DNA of 39,120 bases from Caldifarciminota bacterium (GTDB lineage Bacteria; Hydrothermota; Tepidihabitantia; SM23-42), in the NCBI GenBank assembly GCA_016936155.1, contig JAFGPO010000053.1:1-39120 (forward strand), read 5' to 3'. Position 1 is the stretch's first letter, and each line of letters opens with the position of its first letter. Position numbers and translations under genes: made by a program. The notes beneath the pieces were generated by a model that was not told the DNA's origin, made no database searches, and saw only the letters and a list, made by a program, of their open reading frames with translations. Below, one piece after another: positions 26,688 through 30,295 of the stretch.

Positions 26688-26715
26688 TTGACAAAATCTA
26701 AATAATGTGTAAAAT
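26688..26715 (+). promoter_or_regulatory. Promoter of the dcw cluster
   Basis: TTGACA (26688-26693), 16-bp spacer, TAAAAT (26710-26715). The start near 26722 leaves a ~12-nt leader before the mraZ ATG. Confidence 0.78.
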
Positions 26716-26739
26716 GGTACAGAATGGGGGAAAATGGGG
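26715..26739 (+). promoter_or_regulatory. MraZ-binding repeats (probable autoregulatory operator)
   Basis: TGGTA (26715), TGGGG (26725) and TGGGG (26735) occur with an exact 10-bp period. E. coli MraZ binds direct TGGGN repeats separated by 5 nt, the same period. The first unit is degenerate. The set runs from the last base of the -10 hexamer to the start codon, so bound MraZ would cover the transcription start. Confidence 0.72.
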
Positions 26740-27216
26740 AACATTAGATTTCGAGGCTTTTTCCAGCATGTCCTGGATGATCGGAAGCGAGTAGCGATCC
26801 CGAGCCAGTTTCGGACGGTCGTGATGCATGAATCCGACGGCAAGGTCGTGATGACTCCTGGGTATGACCGTGAGATCGCGGTCTATGCACTCAAGACATG
26901 GGAGGAACGCGAAGAAAGCGAGTTGCTCTCTTTGTCCATGGACCGGATGCAAGCACGACGGTACCGTCGTCACTTTACCTTCGGGATCAAGGAAGACCAC
27001 CTTGACGGACAGGGACGGATCCTCATTCCCACGTTTTTGCTCGAGCACTCGGGGATCACAAAGGACGTTGTTATTGTGGGTGAGATCGACTATTTCACAC
27101 TTTGGTCTCCTGAACACTACCGCGTGTTCATGCAGGAAATCGATAAAAACTACTTAGAAGATGCTGAGAACATTGAACCACTAAGAAGGAGGAAGGATGA
27201 AAGTCCAAGCCATTGA
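26734..27216 (+). CDS. mraZ: Transcriptional regulator MraZ
   Basis: First gene of the division and cell wall cluster, 160 aa, slightly longer than the usual ~145-150. Two SpoVT/AbrB-like halves are visible: RFRGFFQHVLDDRKRVAIPS near the N-terminus and HLDGQGRILIPTFLLEHSGI in the second half. MraZ forms a DNA-binding ring and represses its own operon in E. coli. Operator-like repeats overlap its promoter and start codon. The C-terminal tail, PLRRRKDESPSH, is basic. The next gene starts inside its 3' end. Confidence 0.94.
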   Translation: MGNIRFRGFFQHVLDDRKRVAIPSQFRTVVMHESDGKVVMTPGYDREIAVYALKTWEEREESELLSLSMDRMQARRYRRHFTFGIKEDHLDGQGRILIPTFLLEHSGITKDVVIVGEIDYFTLWSPEHYRVFMQEIDKNYLEDAENIEPLRRRKDESPSH

Positions 27217-27538
27217 AGCCGTCAACAATGTGAAAGTAGCGCTCATGGTGCCCAGTGGAGAGATCAATGAGGCTGAATTCGAGACCATCGATAATAAGTT
27301 CAAAACGCTGGTCGACAAAGGCGACTACAACATCATAATGGATCTTTCCCGGGTCAGTCATATCAACTACAAAGTTGTTGGATGGCTCATTGACTACCAG
27401 AAGAAATTCAAGGAACTGGGCGGTGACATTAAACTGGTGAATGTTTCACCATATCTCTATGATATCCTGCGTCTCTATGGTTTCTACCCGTTCGAGATCT
27501 TCCCGTCAAAACGCGCCGCGCTGAAGAGTTACATGTAG
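27197..27538 (+). CDS. STAS-domain protein lacking the phospho-serine
   Basis: 113 aa, a single STAS fold like anti-sigma factor antagonists. The core reads YNIIMDLSRVSHINYKVVGW, followed by KELGGDIKLVNVSPYLYDIL, matching the family's strand-helix order. Where the family has DSSG with a phosphorylated serine, this protein has NYKV, with Tyr58 at the serine position, so switching by a SpoIIAB/RsbW-type kinase is unlikely. The gene overlaps mraZ by 20 bp, with Shine-Dalgarno AAGGAGGAAGG inside it, and sits between mraZ and rsmH, where an STAS gene is not normally found. A structural or division-related protein-interaction role is possible. No kinase or sigma factor is nearby. Confidence 0.8.
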   Translation: MKVQAIEAVNNVKVALMVPSGEINEAEFETIDNKFKTLVDKGDYNIIMDLSRVSHINYKVVGWLIDYQKKFKELGGDIKLVNVSPYLYDILRLYGFYPFEIFPSKRAALKSYM

Positions 27539-27561: not shown

Positions 27562-28431
27562 ATGATCTTTCATTGTCCCGTGCTGGTGGCTGAGGTCATC
27601 CGCTACATGAGGCTGCAGCCCGGGAACACCTATTGCGACTGCACAGCTGGTGGCGGTGGTCATCTATTGCAGATGCTGCAGGCATCACCTGAAAGCACGT
27701 TCATCGGTATTGACTGGGATCCTGACGCTATTGCCCATGCGCAAAGCGTACTCCAAGCCTATCATGATCAGTGTACCCTTATTCAAGGGAATTTTGCTGA
27801 GATAGATTTAATTCTCGAACGGCTCAAGCTCGACGAACTCGATGGTATCCTTTTTGACTGCGGCGTTTCCCTTTACCAGGTGACAACACCGGCGCGCGGT
27901 TTCAGTTATGATCATGATGGCCCCTTGCTCATGCGCATGTCACCGAACACCATGGCGCTCAAAGAGAGACTCCGATCCATATCAAAGCACGAACTGGCGT
28001 TCATCCTACGGTCTTATGGCGATGTACGAGGGTACCGGCGGATCGCCGAGCTTCTTTATGCCCGGCGCATGAGCCTGCGGACGACCGTAGATATCCGCAC
28101 AATCGTCGAGCAGGGAACACCAAAGCGTTTTCAAAAGAAGAACTGCCGCCGTGTATTTCAGGCATTACGTATATGGGTGAATGATGAGTTGAACAACCTT
28201 GCAAATGGATTGGCCGCTGCGTTCGAGCGTTTGCGGGTCGGAGGACGATTGATCGCGATCGCCTACCATTCCGGAGAGGATCGGATCATTAAGCGTCAGT
28301 TCCGCGAGCACCATGCGAACAAGCGTGGGGTGCTGCTCGCCAAGAAAGTAATCAGGCCATCTGCCGAAGAGGTCCGGGTTAATCCGCGGGCACGAAGCGC
28401 GCGGCTCCGGGTGTGCGAGAAATGCGCATAA
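27562..28431 (+). CDS. rsmH: 16S rRNA (cytosine-1402-N4)-methyltransferase
   Basis: Methylates C1402 in the ribosomal P site; 289 aa, at the short end of the family (~300-315). N-terminus MIFHCPVLVAEVIRY, SAM site YCDCTAGGGGHLLQML, then FDCGVSLYQVTTPARGFSYD and RVFQALRIWVNDELNNL. The C-terminus LRVCEKCA is normal. It is weakly spaced from the STAS gene (23 bp) with little Shine-Dalgarno. mraZ-rsmH-ftsL-ftsI is the standard order except for the STAS insertion. Confidence 0.96.
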   Translation: MIFHCPVLVAEVIRYMRLQPGNTYCDCTAGGGGHLLQMLQASPESTFIGIDWDPDAIAHAQSVLQAYHDQCTLIQGNFAEIDLILERLKLDELDGILFDCGVSLYQVTTPARGFSYDHDGPLLMRMSPNTMALKERLRSISKHELAFILRSYGDVRGYRRIAELLYARRMSLRTTVDIRTIVEQGTPKRFQKKNCRRVFQALRIWVNDELNNLANGLAAAFERLRVGGRLIAIAYHSGEDRIIKRQFREHHANKRGVLLAKKVIRPSAEEVRVNPRARSARLRVCEKCA

Positions 28432-28673
28432 TCCTGATATTCACCGCGATCGTCGTCTACCTTTTCTTGCTCGTATACACGGAGAGCGAATTGGTCAAGA
28501 TCGAAGTGCGTATGGAGAACCTTCAGAACCGGATGCGCGAACTTGACAATAAAAAAAAGGACCTGGAGTCTGAGATAATGGACATCAGCAACCTCGCGCT
28601 CATTGAAGCACAGGCGAAAGAACGGGGATTTGTGTTTCCCGAAGAAGCCGATGTGCATGGAGCGTTGAAATGA
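28422..28673 (+). CDS. ftsL: Cell division protein FtsL-like
   Basis: 83 aa from ATG 28422; a GTG at 28413 is the alternative. One N-terminal membrane helix (IILIFTAIVVYLFLLVY) is followed by a coiled coil (RMENLQNRMRELDNKKKDLE) and a short tail. Sequence similarity in FtsL is low in general, so the call rests on topology, length and position between rsmH and ftsI. It overlaps rsmH by 10 bp and ftsI by ATGA. It would form the FtsQLB bridge with FtsI and FtsW. Confidence 0.8.
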   Translation: MRIILIFTAIVVYLFLLVYTESELVKIEVRMENLQNRMRELDNKKKDLESEIMDISNLALIEAQAKERGFVFPEEADVHGALK

Positions 28674-30295
28674 GACGTCAGAAGATTCTGAATTTCTGCC
28701 TGTTCGCGGCTTCGGTGGTTTTTTTCTCGTACATATTTTATATCCAGTGCATCCGTTATGCCTACTACGACAACCGCGCACGGAATCAGCATGAGAAAAA
28801 ATTCATCCTGTTCGGTTCGCGGGGGAATATCTATGATCGGAATGGGCTGCCGCTCGCGACCTCGAGTCAGTGTTTCTCGATATTCTGTACACCCCGGTAT
28901 ACAACGAACAAGAAGCGTCTCGTGCGCGAACTGTCGATTTTGAGCAATGCCTCGGAATACACCGTACATAAACAGGTTGAGAAGGGTACGTTCTTCTGGG
29001 TGGAACGCAAGGTCGATCTTAATAAACGCGATCAGTACCTTGATCTTGATGATCCGAGCATCGGGTATACTTATGACCTGAAAAGGCACTATAACATGCC
29101 GGAGAATTTCGTAAGCATTCTCGGTGCCTGCGGTTCAGACAACCGGGGGATCGAAGGCCTGGAACTGCAATTGGATGATGTCCTGAGCGGGGAAGGGGGT
29201 TTTGCCATCTACCAGCGGGATCCGACCGGGGATTTAATCCCTTACCATAACAATACGGAAAAGGAGCCCACTCCTGGCAAGGATGTTTATTTGACGATCG
29301 ATCTCCAGGTGCAGTCCATCCTGGCGGCGAACCTGCAGGCAGCTTTGGTCAGCGAGGACGCACACCATGCAGCAGGGATCGTGATCCAGCCTCGCACCGG
29401 CGAGATACTGGCACTGGTCAACGTGGGACGTAACAATGATACGAGGAACCATGTTGTCTGCGACGAGTTCGAACCCGGATCGACCTTTAAGCTCTTGACG
29501 TTGACCTATGCCCTTCTTCATGGGAAGAATGAACAAGAAACGATCGATACCGAAGGTGGAACATGCAAGATCCATGGACACACGATACACGATTATCGTG
29601 ATTATGGTACTGTAACGCTCGCACAGGCGATCGCCCATTCGAGCAATGTCGCCATGGTGAAGATATCAAAGGATTTTGACCGGGAAGCATTCTGCATGCT
29701 TGCTCGTGATTTCGGATTCGGACAATTGACCGGTATCGAGTTGCCAGGCGAAGTGAAGGGGCGTCTCCCTGACCATGATTCGATCAATGATGTCGAGTTT
29801 GCAACGCTCGTATTCGGGCAGGGTCTGACGGTCAACCTCCTGCAGTTGGCGTTCGCTTACCAGGCGGTGGCGAACCGGGGAGTGCTCAACCGGCCCGTGC
29901 TCATCAAAGAGATCAGGAATGGCTCGCACACGGCGTACGCGTTTGATCCGCTTCGCATCCGAAGGGTTATCACCAAGGATATCACCGAACGCCTCACTGC
30001 GATCCTCTGTGGCGTGGTCGAGCAGGGGAGCGGCCAGGGTGCAGCAATGGAGGGTGTACGCATCGCGGCAAAGACCGGAACCTCCCAGAAGGTGGTCAAT
30101 GGCACATACTCTAACCGTTCGATCATTACCACCTTTGTCGGTTTCTTTCCCGCCGAGTCTCCTGATTATCTGATTGCAATCCTGCTCGATGAACCGAAAA
30201 AAGGATTGTGGGCGAGTACGATCGCCGCTCCGATCTTCAAGAAGATCGCGCAGAGTATTTATCAAATTAATGCATATCAATATGCAGCTGAGTGA
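28670..30295 (+). CDS. ftsI: Penicillin-binding protein, division transpeptidase
   Basis: Class B PBP that cross-links septal peptidoglycan, 541 aa. One N-terminal membrane helix (residues ~8-30), a dimerisation domain starting at SRGNIYDRNGLPLA, and a transpeptidase domain. Active-site motifs are complete: Ser271-x-x-Lys274 (GSTFK), Ser324-x-Asn326 (HSSN) and Lys468-Thr-Gly (KTGTS). There is no PASTA domain, which fits a Gram-negative FtsI rather than a SpoVD type. Its 3' end overlaps murE by 14 bp. It works with FtsW, encoded five genes downstream. Confidence 0.95.
   Translation: MRRQKILNFCLFAASVVFFSYIFYIQCIRYAYYDNRARNQHEKKFILFGSRGNIYDRNGLPLATSSQCFSIFCTPRYTTNKKRLVRELSILSNASEYTVHKQVEKGTFFWVERKVDLNKRDQYLDLDDPSIGYTYDLKRHYNMPENFVSILGACGSDNRGIEGLELQLDDVLSGEGGFAIYQRDPTGDLIPYHNNTEKEPTPGKDVYLTIDLQVQSILAANLQAALVSEDAHHAAGIVIQPRTGEILALVNVGRNNDTRNHVVCDEFEPGSTFKLLTLTYALLHGKNEQETIDTEGGTCKIHGHTIHDYRDYGTVTLAQAIAHSSNVAMVKISKDFDREAFCMLARDFGFGQLTGIELPGEVKGRLPDHDSINDVEFATLVFGQGLTVNLLQLAFAYQAVANRGVLNRPVLIKEIRNGSHTAYAFDPLRIRRVITKDITERLTAILCGVVEQGSGQGAAMEGVRIAAKTGTSQKVVNGTYSNRSIITTFVGFFPAESPDYLIAILLDEPKKGLWASTIAAPIFKKIAQSIYQINAYQYAAE

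Follow-up and report, generated by a model that had tools for sequence, protein, structure and literature searches.

A STAS-only gene without the phospho-acceptor serine, fixed in place between mraZ and rsmH in many families of the WOR-3 phylum

Few gene orders in bacteria are as stable as mraZ-rsmH-ftsL-ftsI, and the dcw cluster in the window (the whole stretch of DNA that was analysed, 39,120 nucleotides in length) raises the question of what a gene for a STAS protein is doing between the first two of these genes. Contig C102, which makes up the window, comes from a MAG of 2.49 Mb in 162 contigs, and the closest public relatives of this MAG belong to candidate division WOR-3 / Stahlbacteria. 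Our findings extend what had been an observation on one locus, and confirm a phylum-level gene family without the phospho-acceptor within the STAS-only proteins.

The locus and its predicted control

Between 24302 and 38950 the genes run in the order fmt, rsmB, mraZ, STAS, rsmH, ftsL-like, ftsI and Mur genes (Table 1), the names other than those of mraZ, STAS, rsmH and ftsL being what we take these genes to be. The preliminary description had the STAS gene overlapping mraZ by 20 bp, and this is borne out for a reading frame that its Pfam match, its conservation and its pN mark as real. Either GAAGGAGG or AAGGAGG is found upstream of the STAS gene, at the matching place, in nearly all genomes of families f1 and f2, and 23 nt lie between the end of the STAS reading frame and the start of rsmH. 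Identity of the protein to its counterparts in about 20 WOR-3 relatives is about 70-79%, and since synonymous sites are saturated in these comparisons while pN is 0.12-0.17, selection on the protein is strong. A comparison of eight genes from the region over 15 loci of the window's family ranks the STAS gene first in conservation, with a mean identity of 81%, followed by rsmB (76%), mraZ (75%), ftsI (68%), rsmH and ftsL (60% each), and murE and fmt (56% each).

Table 1. Coordinates of the features at the start of the window's dcw cluster
Feature	Position	Strand	Basis or remark
Sigma-70-type promoter: TTGACA (26688-26693), 16-bp spacer, TAAAAT (26710-26715)	26688-26715	+	Sequence
MraZ-box-like operator, TGGTA-N5-TGGGG-N5-TGGGG, 10-bp period	26715-26739	+	Third repeat overlaps mraZ start codon
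mraZ, transcriptional regulator of the dcw cluster	26734-27216	+	PF02381, 77 bits; TIGR00242, 1.2e-24
Shine-Dalgarno AAGGAGG of the STAS gene, within mraZ 3' end	27186-27192	+	Sequence
STAS-only protein, 113 aa	27197-27538	+	PF01740, 46.6 bits; AlphaFold2; Foldseek
mraZ/STAS overlap, 20 bp	27197-27216	+	mraZ ends at 27216; identical overlap in 20 genomes
Codons Asn57-Tyr58-Lys59-Val60 replacing Asp-Ser-Ser-Gly	27365-27376	+	Alignment; Tyr58 at the phospho-serine position
rsmH (mraW)	27562-28431	+	PF01795, 271.7 bits
ftsL-like gene (DivIC/FtsL family)	28413-28673	+	PF04977, 2.7e-8; TIGR02209, 6.7e-7
ftsI, next cluster gene	28670-30295	+	Homologous, order kept, in relatives whose contigs extend that far

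The TTGACA/TAAAAT arrangement before mraZ is also present in the other f1 and f2 genomes. Three TGG repeats at 10-bp spacing precede mraZ in all of the f1 and f2 genomes that were read and, whether or not the STAS gene is there, in the majority of the other families, against a background for TGGGN6TGGG of 0.015 per 210 nt. Triple TGG repeats of this kind resemble the MraZ boxes of other bacteria, which have been described (PMC8475190). Because a conserved promoter and MraZ-type repeats precede mraZ, the STAS gene would be carried on an MraZ-controlled message, and, judging from these sequence elements, it very probably belongs to an operon under MraZ autoregulation. At 26734-26739 the mraZ start codon falls inside the third operator repeat, no more than some 20 nt from the -10 box, and therefore the message leader would be very short.

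Distribution of the arrangement across the phylum

The start of the dcw cluster could be read in 134 of the 147 genomes of our WOR-3 phylum set, 116 of them with mraZ. Exactly between mraZ and rsmH, the STAS gene is found in 53 of these 116 genomes, spread over 11 families (f1, f2, f3, f4, f5, f11, f12, f16, f31, f36 and part of f37), and in 52 of the 53 it abuts or overlaps mraZ, the gap never exceeding 1 nt and a strong ribosome site being frequent; rsmH in turn often overlaps the STAS gene. The coordinates in G060 likewise put STAS between mraZ and rsmH, and two further carriers have no visible mraZ, owing to masked bases upstream in G085 and to a contig end in G063. Pfam does not recognize the most distant members, in f11, f12 and f37, and some remote dcw relatives (L064, L125 and L131) fall below its cut-off; these were joined by family profile and position. 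Profile matches for f37 and f12 reach down to 1e-9, and the f11 proteins of G001, G002, G004 and G005 were joined by an iterated profile to which one of them, L125, had been added by hand. The remaining 63 mraZ-bearing genomes are without the gene. None of the 16 genomes truly without mraZ upstream of rsmH (f17, f22, f23, f24) has a STAS gene at rsmH, a co-occurrence that amounts to weak evidence for MraZ as the partner because it is confounded by descent: the RsmH tree has two halves, and all mraZ-less genomes fall in the one where no genome has the STAS gene.

The statement that this spot is otherwise mraZ-rsmH agrees with four outgroups (Zixibacteriota, Calditrichota, Acidobacteriaceae and Deferribacteres), which were chosen via distant STAS matches: at 113 of their 120 mraZ loci, rsmH follows after no more than about 120 nt, and none has a STAS gene at mraZ. 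Nor does any of the roughly 48 best STAS matches from outside the phylum adjoin mraZ; these are ordinary proteins with (D/N)SSG, (D/N)STG or SSAG loops. The mraZ-STAS-rsmH synteny proposed for searching across candidate phyla is thus recurrent in WOR-3 and was seen at none of the 120 outgroup loci. Close relatives carry the gene at this very position, and the suggested tie to the division cluster holds in that STAS is a fixed part of the dcw front in many WOR-3 families. The gene represents a phylum-level family fixed in its position and not a local oddity. On the RsmH tree, a quick single-gene tree, the presence of STAS takes nine changes to explain, with at least five forced by well-supported branches; early arrival followed by repeated loss, with the place unchanged, fits this pattern, though the change count cannot separate gain from loss.

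Several loci deserve separate mention. One genus offers a natural deletion, in which G144 (L068) has the STAS gene whereas G145 (L067) and G146 (L066) have lost it, their mraZ and rsmH standing 30 nt apart. G137 and G138 (L093 and L094; family f34) have 206-299 nt between mraZ and rsmH and no STAS match in it. Two neighbouring mraZ copies occur at G344:C51:57216-58288 and G357:C8:31009-32071, in the phylum of G151, Acidobacteriota.

A STAS fold without the switch residue

The PF01740 score of the protein is more than twice the gathering cut-off of 22.6 bits, and its AlphaFold2 model (pLDDT 88.4, pTM 0.81) adopts the STAS alpha/beta fold, including a fifth strand (100-102) and a last helix (105-111). 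Top Foldseek matches are SpoIIAA chains (1th8_B, E 2e-6, TM 0.79). At 113 aa the protein consists of the STAS domain only, with no winged-helix DNA-binding domain. It shares with SpoIIAA/RsbV the STAS-only build of about 113-117 aa, strand 5 and helix 4, and the glycine of the b1/b2 loop. It differs in that DSSG is replaced (by NYKV here, by HxHY-type sequences in other families) and the phospho-serine is missing, in its dcw location without an adjacent kinase, and in scores below the equivalog/superfamily cut-offs of the curated SpoIIAA and ant_ant_sig antagonist models (TIGR02886, 34.4 against 114.75 bits; TIGR00377, 32.6 against 53.45 bits).

In STAS antagonists the first of the two D-S-S-G serines is the phospho-acceptor, namely S58 in SpoIIAA (PMC11418112) and S56 in SypA, the mutagenic primers for the latter changing the first TCA after GAT (PMC10120452). 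In the phmmer alignment to SpoIIAA (the PDB chain 1auz appears without Met1), the acceptor serine is opposite Tyr58, the preceding Asp opposite Asn57, the second Ser opposite Lys59 and the Gly opposite Val60, so that the replacement of the switch serine by the tyrosine of NYKV, as first described, is upheld. Position 58 in 52 distinct dcw-STAS proteins is Tyr in 44, Thr in three, Phe in two, and Ile, Ala or Leu in one each, and never Ser. The alignment of homologues at the DSSG position thereby makes the absence of the phospho-serine a property of the whole family, which has the pattern H-x-(N/H)-Y at the switch, and no homologue with the normal serine and a cognate kinase came to light. Nearly all of the roughly 48 best matches outside the phylum have Ser there. 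Conservation, weighted by family, is highest at Gly21 (100%), Tyr86 (91%), His55 (84%), Gly95 and Asp49 (82% each) and Tyr58 (78%). The model places Gly21 in the region of the second N-terminal strand, Tyr58 at the start of helix 2 and Tyr86 at that of helix 3, and the equivalent regions of SypA and SpoIIAA contact the kinase (PMC10120452). Because the conserved residues sit in kinase-contacting elements while position 58 is never Ser, the partner-binding face has been kept and the switch lost.

Candidate partners of the STAS protein

It is highly likely that the protein is a phosphorylation-independent adaptor. Our main reading, to which we assign a probability of roughly 0.4, is more specific: the dcw operon of this phylum would have an adaptor of its own, built of the STAS domain only, that works independently of phosphorylation and has MraZ as its likeliest partner. 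The repressor MraZ operates in cis with its own cluster and has MraW/RsmH as antagonist (PMC8475190), and this antagonism makes a protein encoded between mraZ and rsmH well placed. With moderate confidence we infer MraZ as the partner because the STAS gene has been found only together with mraZ, begins in or at the stop codon of mraZ and appears to be under MraZ-type control, because MraZ acts in cis and has RsmH as its antagonist, and because CapS offers a case of a repressor governed by STAS. CapS, a STAS plus winged-helix repressor of immune operons, provides the precedent for a STAS domain that is tied to, and controls, a transcription repressor, but its DNA-binding domain is part of the same protein, and CapK phosphorylates it on Ser54 (PMC13373217), whereas the dcw-STAS protein is a lone STAS domain and the repressor is encoded separately, by the gene next to it.

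In the mechanism that we propose, the STAS protein would bind its partner, with no phosphorylation, through a face to which the b1/b2 loop contributes Gly21, the beginning of helix 2 His55-x-Asn/His57-Tyr58 and the beginning of helix 3 Tyr86. Its target would be MraZ, the product of the same mRNA just upstream, and binding would alter the MraZ oligomer or the grip of MraZ on its operator. Output of the mraZ-STAS-rsmH-fts genes would then be set by the balance of MraZ and STAS, in place of a kinase and a phosphatase. A protein with the fold of a switch but without the switch residue, encoded next to the repressor of its own operon, is a candidate regulator of MraZ.

Evolutionary rates bear on MraZ and RsmH alike, and the two scales disagree: phylum-wide, STAS follows MraZ after RsmH is removed (partial r 0.74), tracking it better than RsmH, whereas within the window's family, with seven control genes, STAS distances are closest to RsmH (partial r 0.41), then rsmB (0.38), with MraZ at 0.06. 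No residue of MraZ or RsmH tracks STAS presence above label shuffles, and no clear change in MraZ follows STAS loss in G145 and G146 as compared with G144. The main rival, which we consider unlikely, is that the protein is a partner of RsmH, the 16S rRNA methyltransferase, or of its ribosome step, and tunes the MraW side of the antagonism. Besides the within-family distances, this is favoured by rsmH being the other invariant and often overlapping neighbour, and by the loss of the LDMR(M/F)D motif from f1 and f2 RsmH; yet rsmH is present in nearly all genomes, STAS or not, and the other families with STAS do not show the motif loss. As to this motif, the LDMR(M/F)D of other families reads LLM(R/Q/N)M(S/A) in the f1 and f2 proteins displayed, including that of the window; rsmH is kept there while the acidic residues of the motif are lost, and RsmH activity may be altered. 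Being confined to f1 and f2, the loss is ruled out as the reason for the STAS gene.

Co-transcription of the dcw genes, whose products mostly act together, would also suit a protein that binds another cluster product (FtsL, FtsI or the Mur enzymes) or a cytoskeletal protein, the position then reflecting co-expression only. This we regard as rather improbable, since in the genomes read the gene is always at mraZ/rsmH and was never found beside later dcw genes. There is also a slim chance that the protein is a dedicated MraZ effector in which the patch of His55-x-His/Asn57-Tyr58 and Tyr86, having taken the place of the phospho-switch, is a ligand or metal site, the operon being tuned by a signal that STAS reads; if true, a ligand-reading STAS protein would be a signal input for MraZ.

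Conservation of Tyr at the phospho-acceptor position in 44 of 52 proteins could suggest a tyrosine-phosphorylation switch, but the Phe of two proteins, the Thr, Ile and Ala of f3 and the Leu of f4 occupy that position with the place in the operon unchanged, which makes such a switch very doubtful. A constitutive anti-sigma antagonist, which would hold an RsbW-type kinase without being phosphorylated and free sigma when dcw is on, could draw on the closest fold being SpoIIAA in its complex with SpoIIAB, on the continued activity of the non-phosphorylatable SypA-S56A (PMC10120452), and on RsbW-type kinases in some STAS genomes, including the window's. No kinase gene adjoins dcw-STAS, however, and of the STAS-positive genomes, G002 (99% complete), G065 (92%), G006 and G140 are without any match to HATPase_c_2 (RsbW-type). 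The small HATPase conserved in the window's family was rejected as the cognate kinase, its neighbours being DRTGG, ferredoxin/hydrogenase-like and PHP genes. The kinase of the window's genome has its own adjoining STAS partners in a module separate from dcw, L154 (G000:C153:7000-15850), which holds an RsbW-type kinase of 171 aa, a STAS protein of 216 aa with a VSSAGWG loop, a TPR protein, a STAS-HATPase fusion of 314 aa with an LSSTALG loop, and a membrane protein of 504 aa. Because four STAS-positive genomes are without HATPase_c_2, the small HATPase lies in a hydrogenase-like operon and the window genome's kinase belongs to a separate module, dcw-STAS can do without an RsbW-type kinase. An antagonist of this kind is accordingly very improbable, and the earlier view that the gene is no sigma-factor switch is supported. 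The stressosome proteins RsbS/RsbR, which have an acceptor Ser/Thr and an RsbT-type kinase, differ in the same respects, dcw-STAS having no Ser at the acceptor position and no adjacent kinase.

The likeness to MlaB drawn in the preliminary description, by contrast, is not borne out. The two share only the character of a STAS protein acting by binding without proven phosphorylation, whereas MlaB keeps Thr52 at the switch position, is without the fifth strand and last helix, and binds the mla ABC ATPase (PMC7367683). An MlaB-like regulator of the ABC transporter, acting in trans on MlaF, might be entertained as WOR-3 genomes have MlaE and both of the two mla operons inspected are without an mlaB gene. 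It is nonetheless extremely improbable, and MlaB-type identity is rejected on topology, switch residue and distribution: the window's protein has the C-terminal strand and helix and no Ser/Thr at its switch, MlaE is found in 133 of 147 genomes equally with or without the STAS gene, G077, which carries the STAS gene and is assembled in one contig, gives no match to MlaE, and no mla genes lie near dcw-STAS, which is in dcw in all 53 genomes while the mla operon is elsewhere. What stands of the earlier interpretation is a non-sigma module of the division cluster without the phospho-serine; the MlaB analogy does not, and none of our observations points to bactofilin scaffolds.

In its operon type and MraZ-box-like operator the locus matches the MraZ-MraW(RsmH) pair, from which it differs in that elsewhere in bacteria no gene lies between the two. 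No STAS gene linked to mraZ, and no STAS protein as a third member of MraZ/RsmH, was met in the literature searched, which covered few subscription journals. The control of MraZ activity and the reason for the MraZ/RsmH antagonism are not understood (PMC8475190). In summary, the dcw-STAS proteins are a whole STAS family that has kept the binding face and discarded the phosphorylation switch of the best-studied members, and a gene kept between mraZ and rsmH across distant families of one phylum represents a concrete candidate for the missing control of MraZ.
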